Assembly: GCA_950295325.1 (NCBI GenBank)
Contig: OX485805.1
Coordinates: 51,670,758-51,734,757 of the forward strand
From: Polytrichum commune
Taxonomy: Eukaryota; Streptophyta; Polytrichopsida; Polytrichales; Polytrichaceae
Direction: 5' to 3'
DNA length: 64,000 nt
Shown here: positions 5,414 to 45,335 of the stretch, piece by piece
Position numbering within the stretch: the first letter of the stretch is position 1
How the letters are laid out: every line of letters starts with the position of its first letter
Program-made: the position numbers and the translations under genes
Notes under the pieces: model-generated
What the model was told of the DNA's origin: nothing
The model's input: only the letters and a program-made list of their open reading frames with translations
The model's database searches: none

Positions 5414-5923
5414 ATGGGGACAGAGATGAGGCCACTTGGCTTTAGCTTTTTTCTTGATTTCCTTGAAGAAGTCGTTAGTCATTGGTATGAGCAACAATCA
5501 CCAAGTGTCAAGTCTAGTTGGGAAGTTTTAATAAAAATGTTCATTGCCAAGTTTCAATCCAAGGAAAGTTTTTTAAGCCTACTAGGCTCTTTAGGCAATG
5601 TCTGCCGATCTCCCGGAAAAAGTGTGCGTTCATATAGTGAAAGGGTACAAAAACTACAATCCAACATCAAGAAGAGTGTCTTGAGAACAAGCATGGTTGG
5701 CACAAGTAGTGTACCTACATATCTATCAGCGACATTGTTGGGAATTGACAACCTTGTTTTGAAGAGTTTTGTATACGACTTACTGCTAGCATTGCAAGAA
5801 GGGTCGCGTTCACAGATCCCCCAACATTTGACGAAGCTTTGGCTCTTGCTCAATGCACAGAGGACAACCTATTGTGCATGGCGCAACCACCAATCAACTT
5901 ACTTCATTCAGTTGGACCATTAA
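5414..5923 (+). pseudogene. Retrotransposon gag-like fragment
   Basis: A 169-codon open stretch. Around residues 20-85 the pattern WYEQQSPS...SWEVLIKMFIAKF...SVRSYSERVQKL matches the usual Retrotrans_gag layout (Trp-Tyr, then Trp-x-x-hydrophobic, then a Phe and a later Tyr-x-x-Arg/Lys helix). No zinc knuckle, protease or polymerase follows; downstream DNA is AT-rich and stop-filled. It is unrelated in sequence to the intact element at 35-45 kb as far as I can see. Probably a decayed Ty3/gypsy piece. Confidence 0.5.
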
Positions 5924-21217: not shown

Positions 21218-22368
21218 AAACCCAAAAATTCAAATAGCAATTCATCACAGTATTGTACATTATCTCTATTCCCTCTGAGTCCACATTTGTTTTGGGTTAT
21301 ATGTAAACAAACTCTGTATCTTCTTAATTATGGAGCTAGTAGATTGGTACTAGCAAGCGAGCGAAATGCACCTCTGCCATGGCAACTAATCCAGACCAAT
21401 GTCTTTTAATGACGAGCTGCATTGTCTGAACATTTGAACATGTATGTCCCCGAAGATATGTAGTGAATGACTCTACCATGACAGGTTTTTGGTGTTTGAC
21501 GCATATCTTGCAACAAGTAAGGCTGTGAATGCGCACCAATCAACTTGAGTTCTGAAACTAACTGACTCGTTGGATCCAGCAGAAAGGTAGGCCCACGGGT
21601 TCTTCATCCAGGAATGATTCTGGAAATTTCGGAAGAACTGTTACGTTTGCCGGAATCCCCTTATGTGAGGACGGGTTTAGGGTTTATCTCTGTGCTTTAA
21701 TGATTTAATGACGAAAGCAGGGGATGTCAATGGAGCATATATATACAGAAATTAAGCAATGACCATGTAGGAGGATTACAAGGGACTGTTTGTTTGTCGT
21801 ACATGACCTCTCATGCATCGACAACACCTGTCTTGAAAGGTCCGGCATAGCGGATGCCAAGCAAGAGCAGTGGTGTAGGTGAGGAGGAGCTGCATCTAAT
21901 TCCTGTACAGTCGGAGTAGCTGCACAACTTGGTTCGGGTTGGGAGCTGGTGCGGGCAACACGCCAACAGTCCAACAACTTGCAAGGACTCTCATCTATAA
22001 CTAGCGCGGCAAACTCTTGGATCTTCATCATTAGCACTCAGTACGCAAATCCGATCCAGGCACTGTAGGTTGCCCTGGCTGCGGGATGCTGGATTCATGC
22101 ACCTCATTGTGAAATCTCTTTGGTGACCTTCCATCCTCATCTGGAAGTCGACATAGCCTAGTGCAATTCTGAGATCCTTCCATTCGCATATCTCACATAC
22201 AGATCAACATTGTGGTACAAACTTAAGTCAATATTAGGTTTTAAGTTTTAACTGTTTCAAACACACCCATCACACTACTGGAAATTTGAAATCCCTAATT
22301 CCTCAGTGATCACTAGTGCTAAAGCACAATTTTGTGCCATTGGAACATAAAGCACTACCTGAGACAGG

Positions 22369-22905
22369 ATGGCGAGATTTAGAGCAGGAGCAGCCATGAC
22401 ATCCGCATCGACATCCTGGCCACACACGATGATGGTGTTCGTGATGATGCTCTCCATGACCTCCATGGTCGTAGCAGCGGAGGCACCTGAAGCTGCGTGG
22501 GATCATACGGGGTTGGTGAACATCTACAACTATGTGGGGGATTCAATCACAGTTCACTGCAAGGACCAGTTCACCGATTTGAAGCCGCAGAGGATTGCCC
22601 ACGGGGCTGACTACACCTTCAAAGTGCAGCCCAACCGGGAAGAAACCACTCTGTACACCTGCTCCTTCGTTTGGGGCCTCAACATGTTCCAGGAGTTTCC
22701 TGTCTGGAGAGGGAGCAGCTATCAAGACTCTTCCATCTGCGGAGCTACGGCTTCCAGGAAGTGCTTGTACAAGGCCACCCAGAAGGGCATCTTTGTCGCA
22801 ACTTCCAGCATTCCAGTCAGTCGACCGGAGGGTGCCTCTACTTGGGCGCTTTTCAGGAATTGGATAATTGCTGCAATAAGCCCAAGGAGCCCGGATTCGT
22901 CATGA
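22369..22905 (+). CDS. Secreted plant S1 family (self-incompatibility protein homolog)
   Basis: A single-exon 178-codon ORF. Residues about 21-37 form a hydrophobic core before an Ala-rich segment, as in a signal peptide; a second ATG at 22396 would also keep it. The mature part follows the S1 pattern: VNIYNYVGDSITVHCK (Cys64), later YTCSFVWG (Cys98), then Cys124 and KCLY (Cys132), the four cysteines expected to form two disulphides. S1 proteins are small secreted ligands; the founding member is the poppy pistil self-incompatibility determinant, but most homologs have unknown roles. The last 30 or so residues do not follow the family's C-terminal strand, whereas an overlapping frame is rich in Cys and aromatic residues, so a late frameshift is possible. 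It sits between U2 copies 2 and 3. Confidence 0.8.
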   Translation: MARFRAGAAMTSASTSWPHTMMVFVMMLSMTSMVVAAEAPEAAWDHTGLVNIYNYVGDSITVHCKDQFTDLKPQRIAHGADYTFKVQPNREETTLYTCSFVWGLNMFQEFPVWRGSSYQDSSICGATASRKCLYKATQKGIFVATSSIPVSRPEGASTWALFRNWIIAAISPRSPDSS

Positions 22906-35265: not shown

Positions 35266-35437
35266 TAACGTAGCGTGCACCAATGATTACGCCTCTCCCT
35301 CTTTACGATTTGTGACAATACCACATATTTGAGGATAATTTGTTCTCTTACTGTTGTTTCCCCATGATTTTTATGACAATGCCTCTCATCTAACAATTGA
35401 ATTTGCTATCCTCTTCCAATGTCCACCCTCTTGGGTT

Positions 35438-35770
35438 TGTCACGGTATGCGGCGTCGAAAGCCGCACCATATCCGTTGGGTTTCATCCATCTAGATTTGG
35501 ATAGATGAATCTAGATGTGGAGAGGAAGGCTCCTAAGTGAGGAGCCTCCTCCTTGGCTTGGTATTCTTGCCAAGTCAAGTCTTGTGAGTTAGTGTGTGGA
35601 GAGAGCTTGTGTGAGGTGTAGATTGCATGATTTTGCAATAAATCTTGAGTTCTTCTTCCCCTACTTACACTCTTGGATTCTCCCTTGGTGGAGTGAGAGA
35701 TAGCTTGACTAATTTGTGTGCATTTGAAGAGATTTAGAGCTATTATGAGTGTTCTACTCTCTTCCTTCTC
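35438..35770 (+). repeat. 5' LTR (333 bp)
   Basis: Matches 44892-45224 with one difference (CTACTCTC versus CTACTATC). It begins TGTCACGG. Four perfect hairpins lie in its first half: TGCGGC/GCCGCA (35448-35453 with 35461-35466), CATCTAGATT/AATCTAGATG (35488-35497 with 35508-35517), AGGCTCCT/AGGAGCCT (35527-35534 with 35540-35547) and CTTGGC/GCCAAG (35552-35557 with 35569-35574). An AATAAA signal lies at about 35637-35642. It does not end in CA, which is unusual. Confidence 0.9.
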
Positions 35771-35783
35771 ACTTGGCAAGAAT
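35771..35783 (+). promoter_or_regulatory. Putative self-complementary primer-binding site
   Basis: ACTTGGCAAGAAT starts directly after the LTR and is the exact reverse complement of ATTCTTGCCAAGT at 35563-35575 inside the LTR. Immediate adjacency to the LTR is where a primer-binding site belongs, and I see no match to the usual initiator-Met tRNA site (TGGTATCAGAGC). Self-priming by the RNA's own 5' end is known for Tf1/sushi-type elements; its operation here is inferred. Confidence 0.6.
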
Positions 35784-36099
35784 GCTTCATCTTTGATGTT
35801 TTCTTCTTCATTCTTGAGATGTAACGCGCAAGGGAGGGTGTGAAGACAAGAATTGATGAAGTTGTGAAGTTCTGGAATGACAACATCGCGGATTTGCGGA
35901 GCAACAAGAAGAAAGAGGTGTGCTTGTGAAGTTTACACATCACTTGAATTGTGATGAGAATTCATTGAATTTTTCACGAAATTTTGTACCATTTGGTCGC
36001 TTGCAAGCAAGCATTCACGCCATTGTGCTTTGGAACGGATTCTTCACACTAAGTGGAGAAAGTGTGATTAAAAAAAAAACAAATAACAAAAAAAAAAAA

Positions 36100-36320
36100 A
36101 GGAGAGAGGGAGGCGGCCAGCCTCCCTCTGTTGCTGGCCCCTGGTGTGCAGAACCGCGGCGGCTAGCGGCGGCAGTGTGCGTCAAATCGTGGCGTCTGGC
36201 GGCGGCAGTCTGCGTCAGACCGCGGCGGCAGTCTGTGGCGTCTGGCTGCGACAGTCTGCGGCGTCTGGCTACGACATTTTGCGGCGGCTGGCTGCGTCAG
36301 TCTGCAGGCTGCCATTCCAG
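36100..36320 (+). repeat. GC-rich degenerate tandem repeats in retrotransposon leader
   Basis: Repeating variants of GGCGTCTGGCTGCGACAGTC and GCGGCGGCAGTCTGCG in an otherwise AT-rich 1.5-kb leader between the primer site and ORF1. The stretch may form strong RNA structure; no coding role seen. Confidence 0.65.
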
Positions 36321-37268
36321 CAGAGATTGGAGAGGTTTGTGGGCGTAATCAGTTGATTTCCAAGTGCTTGCAAGTCCAACCGGTTGTGTATTTTGTTTTT
36401 TTTGTTTTTGTTTTTGTTTTTTTTTTAATTAATCAATGCGTTAATGAATTAAAACCGGACTTAATTTAATTTAATTTAATTTAATAATTTAAACCGGATT
36501 TTTTATTTTAATTATTTTAATTAATTAATTAATGTTTTCTTTCAACTTCTTATTTTTCTTTTCTCTCTAAGAGGTTAATTTCTTATTTTCATTAATCAAG
36601 AACACAAGATGAACCCCAAACTTCTTATGAAATATTAAGGTAATTTCATTTGGGGGATTGTTTAAGGATTGCCAAGGGATTTCCACAAGAATGTTGTGGC
36701 ATGTGGAATCATCGTTCGACCTATGTTGAGGTCGAATTGTGTTCATGAACATAGGTTCCACAAGTTTCCTTATGCATTGAATTTTGGGTTGTAATGGAAG
36801 AATAGGATATGTGCATTTCCTTTTCCAAAGCAACAGGGGCTTTTCGTTTTGACCACCGACTGCAGCCGGTGCCAGTTGGTTGCGGTCGTTTTCGATTTCT
36901 GCTTAAGTGTTGTTTTGGGGAAGAGGATCCAGTGCTGTTCTTGCATTGTTCCTTGTATTTTGTTGTGGTACCTTCCCCCGTGGCGGGCTGTTGTGTTGGA
37001 GTATTCCAACATTGCCCCATTTTGTGTAGTCCTAGATTGTGATAGGGTACTGTGGAGGTGAGGTCGGATTAATGACCGACGGGACCTTTGTTTGTGCACC
37101 AAGTGGGCGGTGCTTGTTTTCACTTGTGGTGAGGCTGGGTTAATGACCAGCAGACCATAAGTTTTGGTGGTGGTTGCAGGTGCAGGTTGCCTTTGACCCT
37201 TTTTCTCTTTGTAACTGAATACTAATTCATTTGGGTTGTTGATTCGGTGACCATCCCATTGTGGGTTT

Positions 37269-40200
37269 ATGGTTACAACTCGTACTCAACATTATCGTTC
37301 TCCGTCCCCAGGAGCATCGGAAGGTCATCCCTCGGACCTCTCGGACGTGGAACCAGTGGTAGCACCCAACGAGGCTTTTCAGCCTACTTCGGCGTGGGGG
37401 ACTATCACTCGGTCTCACGTCCTGTGGGTGGGAACCTTTGACGATATGGAGGAGGAGACTAGGGGAGGGATACGGGACCGGTTTTCCGGTCGAGTAGGGA
37501 CCATTTCTCTGCAAGACTGGAAAATCCGGTTTCGTACGTGGATGCGAGAGAAACGCCAACGCAATACCAATTTTAACGATTGGTATGCGTTCGAGCTTTT
37601 GCCTCAACATTTGGAGCATGAAGCTCTCCAAACTTATGAGCAGTGGACGGACACTCATTGGATGGAACTGCGCCAGGTCGAGCGGTACTGGGAGACTCGG
37701 GTTGAGTTGGTATCTGCATTGAAGGAAGGCGCAGCTTCCAGTTTCATGGCCGTCCCTGAGGTTAAGACGGAGGTACAGGAGGGAGTATACGAAGTGGATG
37801 TGGAGGGAGCTTTTCCTATCAATCCCACGGCTCAGGGCCAAGCTCCCGCAACGGCGAGTACCTCGAGCCCCATTCTTCCACTGTCACGTTATGCCCAGGC
37901 TACCCAGGCGGCATTAGCTTCTTTAGGAGCTCCGCCGGGTTTTGATCCTCTACAAGAATTCCAACTCCATTTGGAGGCGGAATATGGAGGCTTCCGCCGC
38001 GATCAAATGCAGCGTATCCAGGACTTTCGACGGGAGAAAGATGACACGCCTCGTACCATGTACACGAGGTTGGCGAGGTTTGCTAGGGAATCTGGAGGTG
38101 TTTTCGCCGAGAGCCAGTTGGTAAAGGTGTTTTTGTCAAAGCTTGACAAACGCCTCATTGACTTAGCTTTACCCAGGATCATCATGGATCATGGTGGCCG
38201 AGCGACACTTGCGGAAGCTTTCACCATTGTTGAGCAGTGTGATCGTGCCTTGTGTCAGCACGACGCCACTGACTTGGTGTCCATGCTAGTGGATTCTAGC
38301 AAATCCCGGAAGGTTCCAGTTGCGGCTGCGGGGTTGGCAGAGGCAGAGGTGGACAAGATCTTGCATTGTTGGTCTTGTGGACAGGCGGGCCATGCTAAGA
38401 AGGATTGTCCTTCGAAGCATAGGCAAGCCCAGAACGTCACTACTCCGAAGCGGAAACCATTTGTTCCCGCTAAGGGCTCGACGAAGGGGACGGGTAATCA
38501 GTTACCCAAACAGTTGAAGTGTTCTCATTGTGGGCGGAACAATCACGCGGTGGAGAACTGCTTCGCTCTCCATCCTGAGAAACGTCCTTCTTCCGACCGG
38601 GAGAAGACGTTGGAGGCGAAGATTGGAGCCATGGAGGAGAGGTTCAAAAGCTTGGCGTCATCCGGCCAAATTTTGGCCTCACCGTCTTCTTCCGCAGCTC
38701 AGGCTAGTTCTTCCACTCCGGATTACTATATGTTCGGAGCCTCGGGCGAGGTGGTGAGTTCTGCCGCTATGACACGTGCTCAAACCGTGTCACGAGCCAC
38801 GCCTTCGACCACAGGAGAGTCTGTGGACAGCTTACGAGCTCGGCACAATAGTCCCGCGGATCAGATTGGTCAGGCACGCCTTCCATTGTCTTTTGGATTG
38901 GCTGATGCTGCCCAATCTGTCAGTGGTCGCAATTCGAGCTTGGAGGCTTCGAGTCCGTCGACCGACGTGGTGCACACTTTGGCATCCAAAGTGTTGCACA
39001 CGCCTTTGTTCACAGCAATGGATTGGTCGTCATCCGATATCCAACCAGCTAAGGTTTTTTACCTAGCAGGTAGGATATTGGAGGGGAAGGCAACCCCGTC
39101 TTCTCTTACTGTGGCTCAAGCAACCGCAGACCTTCCTACCACGGAGGATCCTGAGGAAGCCGCCAAACGGCGAGCGAGGCTTGCGAAGGAGGCCATTGCG
39201 TCTTTTGACGCACACACCTTGGATGGCCAGGAGCCAACCACATCTTATCATTCACCAGCCTCTGCAGGCGCAGCTTATCTATCCGATGTAGCTGCTCGAC
39301 CTGCTCGCGAGCGTCAAGGCATTCGACCTGGCGTTGTACGGATGGTGAATGATACCGGCATTTTGGTGGTCAGTCGCACTGGGAGCAATGTTACTCAGGT
39401 TTCTCCCCGTTGTGTGATGATGGATTCAGGGGCACAGCCAGTTATGATCGGCAAGAGGCTTGCCCAAGAGTTGGGGTTGACGGCCGAGGATTTGGCTCCC
39501 TGTCCATTCACCATTGTCACATCCATTGGTCACGTGGAGCGGGCCACGGGATATACTCGGGAGCCATTACAGCTTAGCTTCCGAGTGAAGCCTGGAGATT
39601 CATCCGCACCTCTTCTTCTTAGGTGTGCGGTGACGGATGCGACCAACTATGACATTTTAGTTGGTCAGCAAGCACTTTATCCTCTTGGTTTTGGTTTGGA
39701 CAACTGGACTGAAGAGGCGTGGATCCGACCAGGTTGGTCGGTTGGGGATGGCCGCAGGGAACTTATTCCCGTGGCTTTCGCGGCAGCCGCAACCATAGCA
39801 CCATTATCTATGGTTTTTGGATGTGGTGCTATGGTGGACACATTGCCTTATGGTTCCGCATTGTTGGATGAGTCATTGGCGTTCATGGGGAGTACAGACG
39901 ATCCACGGGATATGGCACCTAAGGGTGCATTGGTGCGCCATCCCAAGGATCCCCTTCCTCCTTGGCGTGATTCCGCCGAGCTATTTCGGAGGTGCGAGAA
40001 TATTGTTCACTCTCTCACTCCTAGGACACCGGTCATACCGGGTGTCCTCTCGGCATTGGCACATTCCATTTTATGGCAGCCGCCAGACGCGGGAATTACT
40101 TTGGTGGAACTGTTTGGGGGCATCGGCACAGGCTTAGCGGCCGTATTGGAGGCTGGCCTCACGGTTAGACGATATGTCTATGTGGACAACTCTCAAGTGT

Positions 40201-41333
40201 CCACCCGTGTGGCTCGTCATCATCTTCACCAATTGATGGTATTGTACCCCCAGCAGTTACCTCCAACTGCCATTCGTGGGTGTTTTTCACGTCTCCCTCG
40301 TGATGTCACACTCATCAGTGAGGCCGATTTACGACATTTGGGTCCAGTGGATATGGTGATTGCGGGATGGCCATGCCAGGGCCATTCACGTGCTGGAGCA
40401 GGCGGAGGACTAGAGGATACCAGGTCTAGTCTATTTTGGGACCTCATTCGTCTCATGCAGTGGTGGTATTCCCACCAATTTTCCCCTCTAGCATATATTT
40501 TCGAGAATGTACCTATGTTCGGAGACTCCCGGGCCAAGGTGGTGGAAGGCGATCATTATGTTCGTCAACACCTTGGAGATCCCATTTTTGTAGATGCTGC
40601 GAGCATTGGTTCTTATGCCCACCGGCCTCGGTGGATTTGGACCAACCTCACACCATCATCTACATTAGCTGCAGCATTTTCTGCAGTGCCTCCACCTTTT
40701 GATCAAAAGGTGGACAACATCTTGGATCCAAACCGGACTTCTTTGCCGGTTGTCCGAGATGATTTACCCCCATTGGCATTGGTCAACAAAGTGGGGGCAC
40801 CACAGCGGGCTTTTCCCACATTCATGACGTTTCCACAGTCATTTGCTTTCCGCGATCAGGGGCCAGGTATGGTGTGGGATGCTCACACCAAAACCCACAC
40901 CGAACCATTGGCAGATGAACGGGAGCGTGCAATGGGATTTCGCACTGGCACCACCGCAGCTTCTGGCCTTTCTGAAGGCCAACGACGCTTCGTATTGGGC
41001 CAAGCCATGGATCTTCATACTATGGTGTGGACTGTTGGTTTATGTCTTTCATGGCAAAGACATTGTGGTGACCAGTGGTTGCCTCTGGGGGCAGAGAACT
41101 CTGGTCAAGGGGCACAACGGTCCACATCCATTGAGGAGGGAATTCATGCCATGGTTGGAGAAGCCGAACAAACTTCTCAATTCGAGCAGCATGTAATGGA
41201 GGAGCTTCGAGCTCAACATTTTTACACTGCTTCGGCTTCTTCGCCTCTGGTGGTGGCTTCATCATCACATATTGGTGGTGATGAAGAAATGCCAGACTCT
41301 AGTGCTAGCACTGAGACTGGGGGGCATGGTTAA
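37269..41333 (+). CDS. Retrotransposon ORF1: Gag, aspartic protease and DNMT3-like C5 cytosine methyltransferase
   Basis: 1354 residues. Residues about 60-360 are Gag, with a Retrotrans_gag-like helical part around 235-330. Two CCHC zinc knuckles follow: CWSCGQAGHAKKDC (367-380) and CSHCGRNNHAVENC (418-431). The retroviral-type protease has the active site DSGAQ at Asp719. Residues about 945-1275 are a complete-looking C5 methyltransferase: motif I ELFGGIGTG (947-955), motif IV with catalytic Cys1036 in GWPCQGHS, motif VI FENVP (Glu1079), a motif VIII-like AHRPRWIWTNL, and the late motifs ERERAMGF (from 1219) and RRFVLGQAMD. The late part follows DNMT3/DRM order, while PCQGHS resembles DNMT1 and bacterial enzymes. 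The expected reaction is transfer of methyl from AdoMet to cytosine C5. All catalytic residues are present. The stop is TAA at 41331-41333. Confidence 0.95.
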   Translation: MVTTRTQHYRSPSPGASEGHPSDLSDVEPVVAPNEAFQPTSAWGTITRSHVLWVGTFDDMEEETRGGIRDRFSGRVGTISLQDWKIRFRTWMREKRQRNTNFNDWYAFELLPQHLEHEALQTYEQWTDTHWMELRQVERYWETRVELVSALKEGAASSFMAVPEVKTEVQEGVYEVDVEGAFPINPTAQGQAPATASTSSPILPLSRYAQATQAALASLGAPPGFDPLQEFQLHLEAEYGGFRRDQMQRIQDFRREKDDTPRTMYTRLARFARESGGVFAESQLVKVFLSKLDKRLIDLALPRIIMDHGGRATLAEAFTIVEQCDRALCQHDATDLVSMLVDSSKSRKVPVAAAGLAEAEVDKILHCWSCGQAGHAKKDCPSKHRQAQNVTTPKRKPFVPAKGSTKGTGNQLPKQLKCSHCGRNNHAVENCFALHPEKRPSSDREKTLEAKIGAMEERFKSLASSGQILASPSSSAAQASSSTPDYYMFGASGEVVSSAAMTRAQTVSRATPSTTGESVDSLRARHNSPADQIGQARLPLSFGLADAAQSVSGRNSSLEASSPSTDVVHTLASKVLHTPLFTAMDWSSSDIQPAKVFYLAGRILEGKATPSSLTVAQATADLPTTEDPEEAAKRRARLAKEAIASFDAHTLDGQEPTTSYHSPASAGAAYLSDVAARPARERQGIRPGVVRMVNDTGILVVSRTGSNVTQVSPRCVMMDSGAQPVMIGKRLAQELGLTAEDLAPCPFTIVTSIGHVERATGYTREPLQLSFRVKPGDSSAPLLLRCAVTDATNYDILVGQQALYPLGFGLDNWTEEAWIRPGWSVGDGRRELIPVAFAAAATIAPLSMVFGCGAMVDTLPYGSALLDESLAFMGSTDDPRDMAPKGALVRHPKDPLPPWRDSAELFRRCENIVHSLTPRTPVIPGVLSALAHSILWQPPDAGITLVELFGGIGTGLAAVLEAGLTVRRYVYVDNSQVSTRVARHHLHQLMVLYPQQLPPTAIRGCFSRLPRDVTLISEADLRHLGPVDMVIAGWPCQGHSRAGAGGGLEDTRSSLFWDLIRLMQWWYSHQFSPLAYIFENVPMFGDSRAKVVEGDHYVRQHLGDPIFVDAASIGSYAHRPRWIWTNLTPSSTLAAAFSAVPPPFDQKVDNILDPNRTSLPVVRDDLPPLALVNKVGAPQRAFPTFMTFPQSFAFRDQGPGMVWDAHTKTHTEPLADERERAMGFRTGTTAASGLSEGQRRFVLGQAMDLHTMVWTVGLCLSWQRHCGDQWLPLGAENSGQGAQRSTSIEEGIHAMVGEAEQTSQFEQHVMEELRAQHFYTASASSPLVVASSSHIGGDEEMPDSSASTETGGHG

Positions 41334-41352
41334 TGCTCCCTCCTCTCATTAG
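41330..41352 (+). promoter_or_regulatory. Candidate 3' splice site at the ORF1/ORF2 junction
   Basis: GTTAATG (possible branch site, overlapping the ORF1 stop) is followed by the pyrimidine tract TGCTCCCTCCTCTCATTAG ending in AG at 41352. The open frame of ORF2 begins exactly at 41353, in phase 0. The donor was not identified, so splicing is an inference. Confidence 0.4.
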
Positions 41353-44300
41353 CAATTAGAGTCTGTGCCAGCATCAGGTAGTTCTCCTTTGGTGGAGAGG
41401 GAGACTACAGAGTTTGATGATTGGCCACTTGAATTAGGCCCTCGTCTTACTGGTGCTGAGGCACGTAAGGTACGAGCATTTATTCGCTCGTACCGTAGAT
41501 GTTTTGCTTTTAGCCTTCAGGATCTTGAAGGTTATAAAGGAAAACCCATCCACATTCAGTTGGAGGACGACCATCCCATTTTTCGGAGACCTTACAGGCT
41601 CAGTGTTTCCGAGCGGATTGGCGTTCAGGCTCGTTGCCGAGAGCTCTTGGCAGCAGGGCTAATCGAACTTTCCAACGGGGAGTATGCTTGTGCTACGGTT
41701 ATGCCATCGAAGAAGGATATCTTTGGCAATTGGACGGAGAAGCGGATGTGTGGGGATTACCGTCCAGTTAATCGGAAGACCAAGTCGGATCGGTATCCCA
41801 TGCCAATCCCGGAGGAGTTGTTCGATGCAATCGGATTTTCTCGGGTCTTCAGCACTTTGGACTTGAGATCCGGATATCACCAACTTCCATTACTTACGGG
41901 AGATCGGGTGAAGACCGCATTTTGGGGAGTTGATCAAGATGGGAAAGATCAACTTTATCATTGGAAGTTTCTTCCATTTGGCCTGAAGAATGCACCCGCT
42001 GAGTTTCAGCGGGTGATGGATCAGGTTCTCTCTGGCTTGCCCTTTGCTCGGTGTTACATAGACGATGTGATCATCTTCAGTACAACACCACAGGAGCATG
42101 TGAGGCATCTGCAAGCCGTTTTTGAACGGTTGCAGCGGTGGGGATTGCGCTTGCACCACGGCAAGTGCAAGTTTTTCCATGACCGGTTGGCATATTTGGG
42201 ACATATGATTGTTCCAGGAGGTCTTGGGGTACAACAAGCTAAGGTGGACGCATTGCAGAAGATTCCGGCACCGGTAGATGTGCCGAGACTTCGTGCTTTC
42301 TTGGGCTTGGCGAATTACTATCGGCGATTCGTCAAAAACTTTAGTTTGATTGCCAAGCCGCTCACCATTCTCACGAGCAAGGACCAACCTTGGTCTTGGG
42401 GTCGTGAGCAGCAACAGGCATTTGAGACATTGAAGCAGAAACTGGGTACGGCTCCAGTGCTTCGACGTCCAGATGTCTCCAAATCTTTCCAGTTGCATAC
42501 AGATTGGAGTTCATTGGGTTTGGGAGCAGTTCTTACTCAGAAAGATGACGTTGGCCGGGAGTATGTTGTTGCTTACGCGTCGCGAAGCAACAACACGGCG
42601 GAGGCAAATTATTCGTCCTATGAGGGAGAAGCATTGGCGGCGGTTTGGGCTATTGCCCATTTCCGGCCATATCTTTATGGTCAACACTTTACTTTGGTGA
42701 CTGACCATCAGCCGTTACGGTGGCTCATGGAGTCGGATAAGCTTACTGGCAAGCTTGCCAGGTGGGCTTTGTTGCTCCAGGAGTATGACTTTGAGGTGGT
42801 ACACCGTGCTGGGATTACCAACATGGATGCAGATGGACTCTCACGCAATCCAAGTCCTTCGGATGAGGACTTGACCGGGGCCAGGTGGCATGGAGATTGT
42901 GATCGAGAGGCGGTTCCAGGTTGGCACGCGGCTGCCTACCTCACTTTATTTTCTGGTTCATCTGTTGAGATTCCGATACAGGGCTCGGATGATGAGACTG
43001 ATCGGCCTCAAGCTATTGCGGATATATGGGAGGATCTTCCCGTATTGCATAAGCTTCAACATGGTACCTTTCCTTTGTCTATTTCGGCAATGGAAAAAGA
43101 TAGGATTGGACATCGAATAACAAGGTTCCGTTGGGAGAACGGTTTGTTATTTCGATTGTGGCCGGATGGGACAAGGCGTATTGTTCCTAGGCCGGATCAG
43201 AGGGCCTCCTTGGTGCGACAAGTGCACGAGGAACTTGGCCATTTTGGCATACGCAGGACACATTCGATGTTGCGTGGCCAATATTGGTGGACTGGCATGT
43301 ATCAGCAGGTGGCTGCATATGTCGGGAGGTGTGAAGTTTGTGACCGGGTCAGGTCTAGCTTTAACACCTTATCACCTCAGTTACAGCCCTTACCTATCAT
43401 GGGATTAGGCTACCGTTGGTCGCTGGACTTTGCAGGGCCGTTGGTGGTTACACCACGTGGAGCAAAGTACGTTTTGGTGATGGTCGAGCATTTTAGCAAG
43501 TGGATTGAGCTTGTTGCTCTACCCCAGAACTCTGCAGAGTTGGCCGCGGCCGCCTTTTTGGATCGTGTGTTAGCACGTTTTGGAGCACCAGCTGAGGTGT
43601 TGACGGACCAAGGGAGGGAGTTCCTTGGTGCTTTTGAGGAGTTGTGCACTAAAGCTCTCATAGATCACCGCACCACCTCTCGGGATCATCCGGAGGCAGA
43701 TGGCTTGGCTGAACGGGTTGTTCAGACAACCAAGCGTGGCTTGAGGAAGTATGGATTACTTCGGGGAAGCCACCGGGATTGGGACCTTATGTTGCTATGG
43801 ATTGCTATGGGCTATCGATTTAGTAGGCAGGCCTCTTTGGCATCCTACAGCCCGTATCAATTATTGTATGGACGTGAGCCTATACTCCCGAGTTCTATTC
43901 GGGAAAAACTAGCTCCTGTTGTGAACTTGGATGACCCAGACCTTTGGGCAGAGTGTTTGCAGGAGCGGGCTCAATTCTTCCAGAGGGCCATGCCTATGGC
44001 CATGGAGAATTTGTCCATTGCTCAGCACCGTGACACATTGCGTTATGCACGCATTCGTAGTGGTGCTTACCGGCCTCAGTTGCGGAGATTTCGGCAACGG
44101 GATTATGTTTATCTTCAACGTGAGGCGCCTACGACATTGGATGTCAGGGCGGGGCGCACTATCCTTCGGGTGAAGGAGGTGTTGCCAAGTGGTTTGTTGT
44201 TGTTGGAAGGCAAGGATGGCAGGGAATGTCGCGAGCATTCCAAAAACTGTGCCCCATGTCATCTACCTATTGAGGGTACAGTTCATCCTGAACTGGCCGT

Positions 44301-44499
44301 CGTACCAGAGGGTCTTCCATGTTTTGTGTGTGGAGACAAGAAGGGAGCAGCTACTATGCTCTTGTGTGATCAGTGTCAACGCGGTTGGCACATGGCATGC
44401 TTGCGGCCACCCTTGACTTCTCTACCATCTGGACAGTGGAGTTGTCCTCGCTGTCGAGGATCTTCGGTACTTGGTGCTTCCACCAATCGTACTCAATGA
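41353..44499 (+). CDS. Retrotransposon ORF2: reverse transcriptase, RNase H, integrase and PHD finger
   Basis: Open from 41353 to TGA at 44497-44499; numbering here is from the GTG codon at 41365. Reverse transcriptase carries the catalytic YIDD at 231-234. RNase H begins at LHTDWSS (Asp380) with DHQPLRW and NMDADGLSR further on. Integrase has an HHCC finger (His621, His626, Cys656, Cys659) and a D,D-35-E triad (Asp688, Asp748, Glu783), then a C-terminal GPY-like segment. Residues 986-1030 form a PHD finger with Cys4-His-Cys3 spacing (Cys986, 989, 1001, 1004, His1009, Cys1012, 1027, 1030) and Trp1025 before the last pair. PHD fingers commonly bind histone H3 tails, so it may guide integration, as chromodomains do in chromoviruses. 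There is no early in-frame ATG; the frame is +1 relative to ORF1 and does not overlap it. Confidence 0.95.
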   Translation, partial: QLESVPASGSSPLVERETTEFDDWPLELGPRLTGAEARKVRAFIRSYRRCFAFSLQDLEGYKGKPIHIQLEDDHPIFRRPYRLSVSERIGVQARCRELLAAGLIELSNGEYACATVMPSKKDIFGNWTEKRMCGDYRPVNRKTKSDRYPMPIPEELFDAIGFSRVFSTLDLRSGYHQLPLLTGDRVKTAFWGVDQDGKDQLYHWKFLPFGLKNAPAEFQRVMDQVLSGLPFARCYIDDVIIFSTTPQEHVRHLQAVFERLQRWGLRLHHGKCKFFHDRLAYLGHMIVPGGLGVQQAKVDALQKIPAPVDVPRLRAFLGLANYYRRFVKNFSLIAKPLTILTSKDQPWSWGREQQQAFETLKQKLGTAPVLRRPDVSKSFQLHTDWSSLGLGAVLTQKDDVGREYVVAYASRSNNTAEANYSSYEGEALAAVWAIAHFRPYLYGQHFTLVTDHQPLRWLMESDKLTGKLARWALLLQEYDFEVVHRAGITNMDADGLSRNPSPSDEDLTGARWHGDCDREAVPGWHAAAYLTLFSGSSVEIPIQGSDDETDRPQAIADIWEDLPVLHKLQHGTFPLSISAMEKDRIGHRITRFRWENGLLFRLWPDGTRRIVPRPDQRASLVRQVHEELGHFGIRRTHSMLRGQYWWTGMYQQVAAYVGRCEVCDRVRSSFNTLSPQLQPLPIMGLGYRWSLDFAGPLVVTPRGAKYVLVMVEHFSKWIELVALPQNSAELAAAAFLDRVLARFGAPAEVLTDQGREFLGAFEELCTKALIDHRTTSRDHPEADGLAERVVQTTKRGLRKYGLLRGSHRDWDLMLLWIAMGYRFSRQASLASYSPYQLLYGREPILPSSIREKLAPVVNLDDPDLWAECLQERAQFFQRAMPMAMENLSIAQHRDTLRYARIRSGAYRPQLRRFRQRDYVYLQREAPTTLDVRAGRTILRVKEVLPSGLLLLEGKDGRECREHSKNCAPCHLPIEGTVHPELAVVPEGLPCFVCGDKKGAATMLLCDQCQRGWHMACLRPPLTSLPSGQWSCPRCRGSSVLGASTNRTQ

Positions 44500-44771
44500 T
44501 CCTGTGTGGTTTTCATCATCTTGTGCTTGTCCAAATGGAAAATGAAGAGTTATGGCTTAGAGACGCAATCGACATGAGGCGCTGGATTTAATTCTTTGGG
44601 ATCTGATGGCCAAACATCAGAGGCGATTAAGGATGGGGCTCACCTTGCACCCAGCCTACAGTTCCTTGGAATAACGTTTACCACACTAGTTAGTTGCGGA
44701 GCAATCTTTCATGATCCATGCCCTTTAGATTGGCATTGGTCCTAGCTGCTTGGCGGGACTCCATAGTCAGC

Positions 44772-44783
44772 TGAGGGGGGGCA
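44772..44783 (+). promoter_or_regulatory. Polypurine tract
   Basis: TGAGGGGGGGCA lies immediately before TGTCGAGG, the position of the plus-strand primer in LTR elements. It marks the start of the 3' repeat structure at 44784. Confidence 0.8.
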
Positions 44784-44889
44784 TGTCGAGGTGTGTTGTT
44801 TATGTGTGACTTTGCTATGTTTTAGTTTTGTTTGTTAGTGGTGGTTGGTACTCGAGCTGCAGTGACACACGATCGCTATTTACACGACA
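44784..44889 (+). repeat. 106-bp unit A, first copy, between polypurine tract and 3' LTR
   Basis: Begins TGTCGAGG and ends CACGACA, so it has LTR-like TGTCG...CGACA ends. Identical to 45225-45330. It joins the 3' LTR copy through GC, making the palindrome GACAGCTGTC at 44886-44895. It is absent from the 5' end of the element. Confidence 0.9.
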
Positions 44890-44891
44890 GC

Positions 44892-45224
44892 TGTCACGGT
44901 ATGCGGCGTCGAAAGCCGCACCATATCCGTTGGGTTTCATCCATCTAGATTTGGATAGATGAATCTAGATGTGGAGAGGAAGGCTCCTAAGTGAGGAGCC
45001 TCCTCCTTGGCTTGGTATTCTTGCCAAGTCAAGTCTTGTGAGTTAGTGTGTGGAGAGAGCTTGTGTGAGGTGTAGATTGCATGATTTTGCAATAAATCTT
45101 GAGTTCTTCTTCCCCTACTTACACTCTTGGATTCTCCCTTGGTGGAGTGAGAGATAGCTTGACTAATTTGTGTGCATTTGAAGAGATTTAGAGCTATTAT
45201 GAGTGTTCTACTATCTTCCTTCTC
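44892..45224 (+). repeat. 3' LTR copy (333 bp)
   Basis: Same length as the 5' LTR with one base difference. It is bracketed by the two 106-bp units instead of lying at the element edge. Confidence 0.9.
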
Positions 45225-45330
45225 TGTCGAGGTGTGTTGTTTATGTGTGACTTTGCTATGTTTTAGTTTTGTTTGTTAGTGGTGGTTGGTACTCGAGCTG
45301 CAGTGACACACGATCGCTATTTACACGACA
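45225..45330 (+). repeat. 106-bp unit A, second copy, at the element's right edge
   Basis: Identical to 44784-44889. It ends CGACA and is followed by GGTTT, matching the GGTT that precedes the 5' LTR. Confidence 0.9.
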
Positions 45331-45335
45331 GGTTT

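Follow-up and report, generated by a model that had tools for sequence, protein, structure and literature searches.

The closest published case to the element described here is KnitGypsy-Dnmt3 of Klebsormidium nitens, reported in 2018 (PMC5890265) and compared by description only; for this and the other papers cited, statements refer to the available parts of their text. The authors placed the gypsy capture of DNMT3 in the Klebsormidium lineage, and the one description of the KnitGypsy-Dnmt3 repeats in the available text, a figure legend, assigns them DIRS-element structure. The same report covers SymbioDIRS-Dnmt3 of dinoflagellates, whose enzymes carry out de novo CG methylation in yeast and for which the authors state no relationship to KnitGypsy-Dnmt3; it also gives the methyltransferases of DIRS elements as adenine type. 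Published retroelement-DNMT cases are filed under 'LTR Copia and DIRS' (LTR, long terminal repeat) in PMC12344493, and our literature search, with most subscription journals and bioRxiv outside it, returned no report of the present family besides these two papers among the matches listed. Here we describe a complete retrotransposon in a 64,000-nucleotide stretch of Polytrichum commune DNA (assembly GCA_950295325.1, contig OX485805.1, forward strand, C3:51670758-51734757; hereafter the window). It is a recently mobile Ty3/gypsy-type element, one copy of a large family, and its Gag-protease frame continues into a DNMT3-like methyltransferase domain, a real, functional-looking and apparently old module. 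A first-pass annotation of the window had pointed to methyltransferase-capturing retrotransposons from charophyte algae and dinoflagellates, which KnitGypsy-Dnmt3 and SymbioDIRS-Dnmt3 substantiate; the split direct repeats, self-priming site, PHD finger and leaky-type stop presented below go beyond it.

A DNMT3-like methyltransferase in the Gag-protease frame

The element spans positions 35438-45330 of the window on the + strand, with a 4-bp GGTT duplication on both sides. Its coding features are as follows (RT, reverse transcriptase; ORF, open reading frame).

37269..41333, + strand: ORF1, encoding Gag, a CCHC knuckle, an aspartic protease and a C5 methyltransferase (open frame, Pfam)
40092..41078, + strand: DNMT3-like C5 methyltransferase domain, residues ~942-1270 (Pfam, PDB phmmer, profile, fold)
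40113..40127, + strand: motif I FGGIG, residues 949-953 (sequence and family alignment)
40374..40376, + strand: catalytic Cys1036 in WPCQGHS (Cys in 81/87 family rows)
40503..40505, + strand: Glu1079 of ENV (Glu in 85/87 family rows)
41350..41358, + strand: UAG-CAA-UUA leaky-type stop, start of pol (sister-copy comparison; context in PMC2754532)
41353..44499, + strand: pol, encoding RT, RNase H, H2C2/DDE integrase and a PHD finger (Pfam)
44320..44454, + strand: PHD finger at the integrase C-terminus (PF00628, E 1.4e-10)

ORF1 runs uninterrupted for 1354 amino acids. It matches zf-CCHC at residues 366-382 (E 0.0037) and, from residue 716 onward, two models for aspartyl proteases (E 0.0068 and 0.016), all below the Pfam cut-off, followed by DNA_methylase at residues 1011-1088 (E 1.1e-11), which is above it. 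The first-pass annotation had read ORF1 as passing from protease to C5 methyltransferase without a break, and the open frame and Pfam domains agree; its placement of the domain also held, and FGGIG, Cys1036 of PCQ, Glu1079 of ENV and the tail motifs ERERAMGF and VLGQAMD all lie where it had put them.

Searched against the PDB with phmmer, the methyltransferase matched DNMT3A at E 1.7e-11, and its predicted model has a mean pLDDT (predicted local distance difference test) of 92.7. A chance open frame was ruled out by this match, the Pfam E-value and the model confidence. Among solved C5 methyltransferases, DNMT3A/B are nearest by both profile and predicted fold, in line with the DNMT3-type assignment made earlier. 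The annotation had further seen a blend with DNMT1, which is not supported as ancestry: the family profile matched 57 sequences at E ≤ 0.01, none of them a DNMT1 or CMT chain, and no such chain was listed in the PDB phmmer or fold searches, an absence that does not amount to exclusion. The catalytic motif is PCQ, not the PCN of DNMT3A; PCQ is a general C5-methyltransferase motif. No PWWP or ADD model was found in ORF1 at E ≤ 1 in Pfam. Tree support for grouping the element domain with DNMT3A was 87/48, with long branches, and when DNMT3A and M.HhaI were the sole outgroups, DNMT3A joined M.HhaI.

Within pol, the DDE integrase is recognized by rve (E 4.3e-14), with H2C2 also matched. Protease followed by RT, RNase H and integrase is the Ty3/gypsy order, with the protease models below the Pfam cut-off. 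At E ≤ 1 in Pfam, no tyrosine recombinase model was found in ORF1 or pol and no chromodomain in the element's proteins; a PHD finger is in place, and its closest solved counterparts are those of CHD4, PHF12 and KMT2D. The earlier call of a Ty3/gypsy retrotransposon agrees with the domain order and the integrase, with the correction that the ends are split direct repeats rather than plain LTRs.

Copies, conservation and selection

The element's own assembly (408 Mb, 64 contigs) was searched for the methyltransferase, and 602 first-look candidates yielded at least 112 scored matches. Six of these, the window included, are at ≥ 98% identity, dozens are near 90%, and 11 sit in stop-free frames of at least 1340 amino acids. 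The first-pass annotation had allowed for a fusion confined to this copy or a family without the catalytic residues; instead, other copies carry the domain and the residues are kept. In the family alignment of 87 rows, Cys is present in 81 (three gaps, three other letters), and the ENV residues are Glu in 85 and Asn in 84; Glu replaces Pro before the catalytic Cys in 37. Among 21 own-genome copies picked for stop-free methyltransferase frames, the window among them, Cys and Glu are each found in 20.

The ratio of nonsynonymous to synonymous divergence (dN/dS) in the methyltransferase is 0.19-0.32 for the window against 16 of the 20 fetched copies (those with dS > 0.05), and its median is 0.23 over 179 copy pairs with dS > 0.05; all 20 copies were picked for stop-free methyltransferase frames, which biases these values downward. 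The corresponding RT range is 0.01-0.21 in 15 copies; the methyltransferase is therefore constrained, though less than RT. A decayed domain was ruled out by the catalytic-residue conservation, the own-genome copies and dN/dS.

The window copy is young, as had been proposed: A1 and A2, the two copies of one terminal repeat, differ at 1 of 333 positions, and B1 and B2 at 0 of 107. Repeat pairs are identical in three of 10 other copies.

A separate observation concerns the history of the family. In most pairs of the window with a sister copy (window 38500-42600; L087, L088, L129-L168), methyltransferase dS is 0.15-0.22 against an RT dS of 0.06-0.11, and a stretch at ~38750-39250 is just 77-80% identical in L087 and L088, where neighboring stretches are 89-97% identical. 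Because of these two features the family looks mosaic, probably from template switching between subfamilies.

Relatives and age of the capture

Relatives comprised 52 proteins with the methyltransferase and 250 with the integrase/PHD region (the best 120 of 250 were mapped from). Domain order was mapped in 172 proteins (171 listed plus the window), 107 of which hold the methyltransferase. Wherever neighboring domains are present, it lies in one of two positions: before RT, as in the window and in rows named Marchantia, Sphagnum and Closterium (streptophytes), or between RNase H and integrase, as in rows named Haematococcus, Volvox and Tetrabaena (chlorophytes, one row each). No row named Klebsormidium was among the relatives listed in the protein searches. 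Methyltransferases of the second position form one clade (SH-aLRT, the Shimodaira-Hasegawa approximate likelihood ratio test, 94 in an 87-row tree; 100/99 in a careful 34-row tree). In the latter tree all 28 retroelement methyltransferases form one clade with 100/100 support against DNMT3A, M.HhaI and four standalone methyltransferases (five were inspected, and P0290 was left out). A 67-row tree of RT, RNase H and integrase sets 27 second-position rows, together with three lacking the methyltransferase, on one side of a branch with support of 100.

A single retroelement clade at two positions in two green-plant phyla suggests one old capture. The simplest reading would be that the methyltransferase was captured once and then moved to another place in the polyprotein, either earlier than the divergence of the two phyla or at about that time; horizontal transfer could be the source of the same two-phylum picture. 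The notion that a host DNMT was recently fused by accident into one family and does nothing there seems to us barely credible, and we reject it in view of the many own-genome matches (at least 112 scored), a methyltransferase dN/dS of about 0.2 and the presence of the domain in relatives from two phyla at two positions.

As for a donor, the five standalone methyltransferases are 26-43% identical to the element domain over part of its length, and no close free-standing source gene was found among these five and the matches listed (best 120 of 376 in the protein search). From their identities, rows of that search down to ~E 1e-20 were taken as retroelement pieces. Scanning IMG/VR with the family alignment gave stretches (best 80 of 376) that share 22-52% identity and for the most part cover a portion of the domain; from the listing these were taken as ordinary phage or bacterial methyltransferases.

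Two peculiarities of individual relatives are recorded here. Four proteins with the methyltransferase before the integrase (P0035, P0036, P0039 and P0046) extend ~320-390 residues further beyond the PHD finger, in a region where nothing in Pfam scored above cut-off; by eye, the P0046 extension contains an SPW motif resembling some adenine methyltransferases. P0173, a piece 67% identical to the element methyltransferase, is filed as a cytosine methyltransferase of a 'Candidatus Obscuribacterales bacterium' metagenome-assembled genome and is probably plant DNA in a bacterial bin.

Split repeats and integrated ends

The features at the two ends of the element are the following.

35434..35437, no strand: left target site duplication GGTT (same 4 bp at 45331-45334)
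35438..35770, + strand: repeat A1, left end, TGTCACGG...CCTTCTC (332/333 identical to A2)
35563..35575, + strand: A-internal ATTCTTGCCAAGT, putative RNA 5' self-primer (perfect reverse complement of 35771-35783)
35771..35783, + strand: putative self-priming primer binding site, adjoining A1 (13 bp complementarity)
44773..44783, + strand: polypurine tract GAGGGGGGGCA (sequence; ends at the base before B1)
44784..44889, + strand: repeat B1, TGTCGAGG...CACGACA (identical to B2)
44886..44895, no strand: palindrome GACAGCTGTC across B1-GC-A2, proposed integrase site (sequence)
44892..45224, + strand: repeat A2 (repeat comparison)
45225..45330, + strand: repeat B2, right end, ...CACGACA (repeat comparison)
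45331..45334, no strand: right target site duplication GGTT (sequence)

The element thus has split direct repeats: A1 (333 bp) stands at its left end and B1-GC-A2-B2 at its right, and the same LTR does not occur at both ends. We read the end pieces of 27 further copies, four of them unreadable at 5' and four at 3'; most had been picked for long open ORF1 or methyltransferase frames, and old or broken copies are under-represented. The leader directly follows A in all 24 readable 5' ends (the window and 23 of the 27). On the right, B1-A2-B2 is found in 20 of 24 readable 3' ends (the window and 19 of the 27; L124 has a truncated B2), and the other four copies end in a single B (L093/L094, L107/L108, L109/L110 and L113/L114). 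Of 22 two-ended copies, 18 have TGTC...GACA ends with perfect 4-bp target duplications; in three others the duplication agrees at 3 of 4 bases, and the last is truncated at one end. Among the copies printed, the window included, a GC spacer separates B1 from A2 in 13 of 14 and A2 directly abuts B2 in 11 of 13, and a polypurine-type tract precedes B1 in all 12 other copies printed. The two central bases of the palindrome GACAGCTGTC are absent at the integrated ends, as they would be after integrase processing.

By itself A2-B2 resembles a normal 440-bp LTR with TGTC...GACA ends, and one could suppose that the element had an ordinary A+B LTR whose 5' B was deleted. We consider this highly improbable and reject it: A stands directly before the leader in every readable 5' end, B1 precedes A2 in all 20 readable 3' ends that have A2, and the self-complementary stretch begins exactly after A.

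A proposed ring-type replication model

Positions 35771-35783, the first 13 bases beyond A1, form an exact reverse complement to its internal stretch 35563-35575, and a self-complement of 12-16 bp is found in 12 of 16 other copies tested. A transfer RNA primer was rejected on the ground that the bases after A1 complement A1's own interior (no transfer RNA set was compared). A self-priming arrangement is described for the Tf1/sushi and Tcn1 elements (PMC6317226). By analogy with Tf1, the RNA would start inside A1 and prime itself at the border between A1 and the leader, and plus-strand synthesis would begin from the polypurine tract before B1. Given these two sites, the product of reverse transcription should be B-A-internal-B-A, bounded by the start of B and the end of A.

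The integrated copies end instead with the start of A and the end of B, permuted relative to the ends expected of reverse transcription, and at the A2|B2 junction the last base ahead of the primer site directly meets the first base beyond the polypurine tract. This permutation points to an end-joined, circular intermediate: the DNA copy of the element probably has to close into a ring before insertion. The ends of the complementary DNA (cDNA) would be joined, leaving the A2|B2 junction as the trace of that join. Integrase, perhaps steered by the PHD finger, would then cut the palindrome GACA-GC-TGTC inside the left repeat, and cutting at this left B|A junction would insert a permuted linear A-internal-B-A-B.

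A one-repeat ring would yield single-B copies. Recombination between B1 and B2 after insertion accounts for them equally well in our estimate, in that B1 and B2 are near-identical 106-bp direct repeats and the single-B copies also lie between target duplications, perfect in three of them and matching at 3 of 4 bases in the fourth; it covers those copies alone, not the permuted ends of the other 20.

A bolder proposal is that end-joined circular cDNA cut at GACA-GC-TGTC is the true substrate of the DDE integrase and that the methyltransferase serves this cycle, not silencing. We regard the whole as doubtful, with the permutation much better supported than the methyltransferase link, which is a guess. 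Behind the link is a pattern: retroelements with split or inverted repeats (DIRS, SymbioDIRS, KnitGypsy and the window family) repeatedly gain a methyltransferase beside their core enzymes. CpG occurs in both arms of the proposed integrase site (CACGACA-GC-TGTCACGG), and methylation could, at a guess, protect the ring or select which of its two junctions is cut.

Probable readthrough of the stop codon

In six of the seven sister copies compared, ORF1 and pol lie in one frame, split by UAG followed by CAA UUA, which we take to be the leaky context of tobamoviruses. The two frames are out of register at UAG in the remaining sister copy and in the window copy, where ORF1, close to its end, differs slightly in length from that of the sisters so as to shift the frame, and where pol is a separate frame. 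We infer readthrough at the UAG between the methyltransferase and pol. For comparison, readthrough at the wild-type stop region of tobacco mosaic virus was 32% when assayed transiently in plants and 6-10% in plants that had been transformed (PMC2754532). Lying upstream of the leaky-type stop, on the Gag side, the methyltransferase would in the window's branch be made in larger amount than Pol.

Possible roles of the methyltransferase

With confidence slightly better than even, we read the locus as a recently mobile gypsy-type element that carries a selected DNMT3-class methyltransferase in its Gag-protease, replicates through a ring-type intermediate and methylates its own cDNA. Encoded upstream of the leaky stop, the enzyme would be made in every Gag polyprotein and enter the particle, and because it would be packaged with Gag, the cDNA in the particle is its likeliest substrate. 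It would methylate the element's own new DNA, and the copy would arrive pre-marked, protected as 'self' or set to a tolerated chromatin state. Self-methylation of the cDNA is plausible and the least certain step of this explanation. The benefit could be a disguise as self-DNA, tolerated chromatin or some part in how the ends are joined and cut. Observed/expected CpG is 0.83 in gag-pro, 0.60 in the methyltransferase and 0.50-0.56 in the flanks.

Rather unlikely, in our judgment, is an action on the host genome at the insertion site, in which the methyltransferase is recruited with the integrase and PHD finger, methylates flanking chromatin and lowers both the expression of the new copy and harm to the host. 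The element does have a PHD finger of histone-reader type, and slower transposition as a fitness benefit is one possibility considered by de Mendoza et al. (PMC5890265); in the window's branch, however, the methyltransferase is on the Gag side of the stop, apart from the integrase. We give still less credence to the idea that the enzyme now serves the particle by binding nucleic acid or as a structural component, or that it methylates RNA, with DNA catalysis not under selection. Membership in the Gag polyprotein, the Glu-for-Pro exchange before the catalytic Cys (37/87 rows) and the KnitGypsy-Dnmt3 domain, which showed no activity in yeast in a result its authors call inconclusive (PMC5890265), would fit such a role, whereas the retention of Cys, ENV Glu and Asn (81, 85 and 84 of 87) would be needless for binding alone.

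Against a self-methylating element with ring-type replication stand several observations, the yeast result just cited among them. Retrotransposons without a DNMT also move in these genomes (PMC5890265). Among 42 differences between repeats in eight copies, 35 are transitions and just three of these transitions fall at CpG, which is no CpG decay signature. In the methyltransferase, the four nearest copies each differ from the window by 5-6 nonsynonymous against 1-4 synonymous changes, an excess as expected of neutral drift after insertion and no support for selection, in copies too similar to the window for a verdict on constraint. The self-complement is 0-9 bp in four of the 16 other copies. 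No A-B-A-internal-B copy was found among the 24 readable 5' ends, and since half would be expected to have this form if either B|A junction were cut, cutting must be directional. With its frames out of register, the window copy is probably incapable of producing the complete readthrough product. Finally, the codon before UAG is CAU, where tobacco mosaic virus has CAA, and 5'-side changes at the stop reduced readthrough in one construct (PMC2754532); CAU may therefore lower it here.

Neighboring features of the window

Outside the element, the predicted product of an open frame at 22363-22905, a small protein that begins with a signal-like stretch, resembles by eye the plant S1 self-incompatibility family, and a short open frame at 5414-5923, gag-like by eye, is probably a remnant of another retroelement.

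Comparison with known systems

KnitGypsy-Dnmt3 and the window element have in common gypsy domains, a DNMT3-class domain and purifying selection, and both combine such a domain in a gypsy element with DIRS-like repeats. They differ in that the DNMT is in the Pol ORF in KnitGypsy-Dnmt3 and in Gag-protease, upstream of the leaky-type stop, in the window element. With regard to KnitGypsy-Dnmt3, the words PHD and protease do not occur in the main text of PMC5890265, and the available text mentions neither target duplications nor self-priming. SymbioDIRS-Dnmt3 is likewise a DNMT3-carrying retroelement, but of DIRS rather than gypsy type (PMC5890265). PAT-group members of DIRS/PAT have split direct repeats like those of the window element, and the methyltransferase domain of DIRS/PAT follows RNase H, its place in the chlorophyte branch of the window family; DIRS/PAT elements, however, use a tyrosine recombinase and lack integrase and protease, whereas the window element has a DDE integrase, a protease and 4-bp duplications (PMC2685390).

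The element methyltransferase is ~25% identical to DNMT3A and DNMT3B. Tf1/sushi and Tcn1 gypsy elements have ordinary LTRs. Their primer site complements their own RNA, not a transfer RNA, as in the window element, but they are chromodomain elements, in contrast to the PHD finger and split repeats seen here (PMC6317226).

These comparisons present a retrotransposon-captured DNMT3 as a long-kept module of a widespread green-plant lineage rather than a one-alga curiosity, and its long retention across streptophytes and chlorophytes at different insertion points implies that its use to the element must be strong. With young copies in an assembled genome, a well-folded DNMT3-like domain whose catalytic site is conserved, and a DNA product that is defined, the family offers a system for asking why a parasite would methylate DNA. 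If the permuted ends have been read correctly, they depart from the rule by which integrases act on linear DNA whose ends come from reverse transcription. Retroelement-DNMT combinations as a kind have been known since 2018, and the one described here takes an unusual and apparently very old form. The Gag-side position, the PHD finger, the leaky-type stop, the green-plant spread and the permuted ends of a DDE-integrase element did not appear in the available text of the literature covered.

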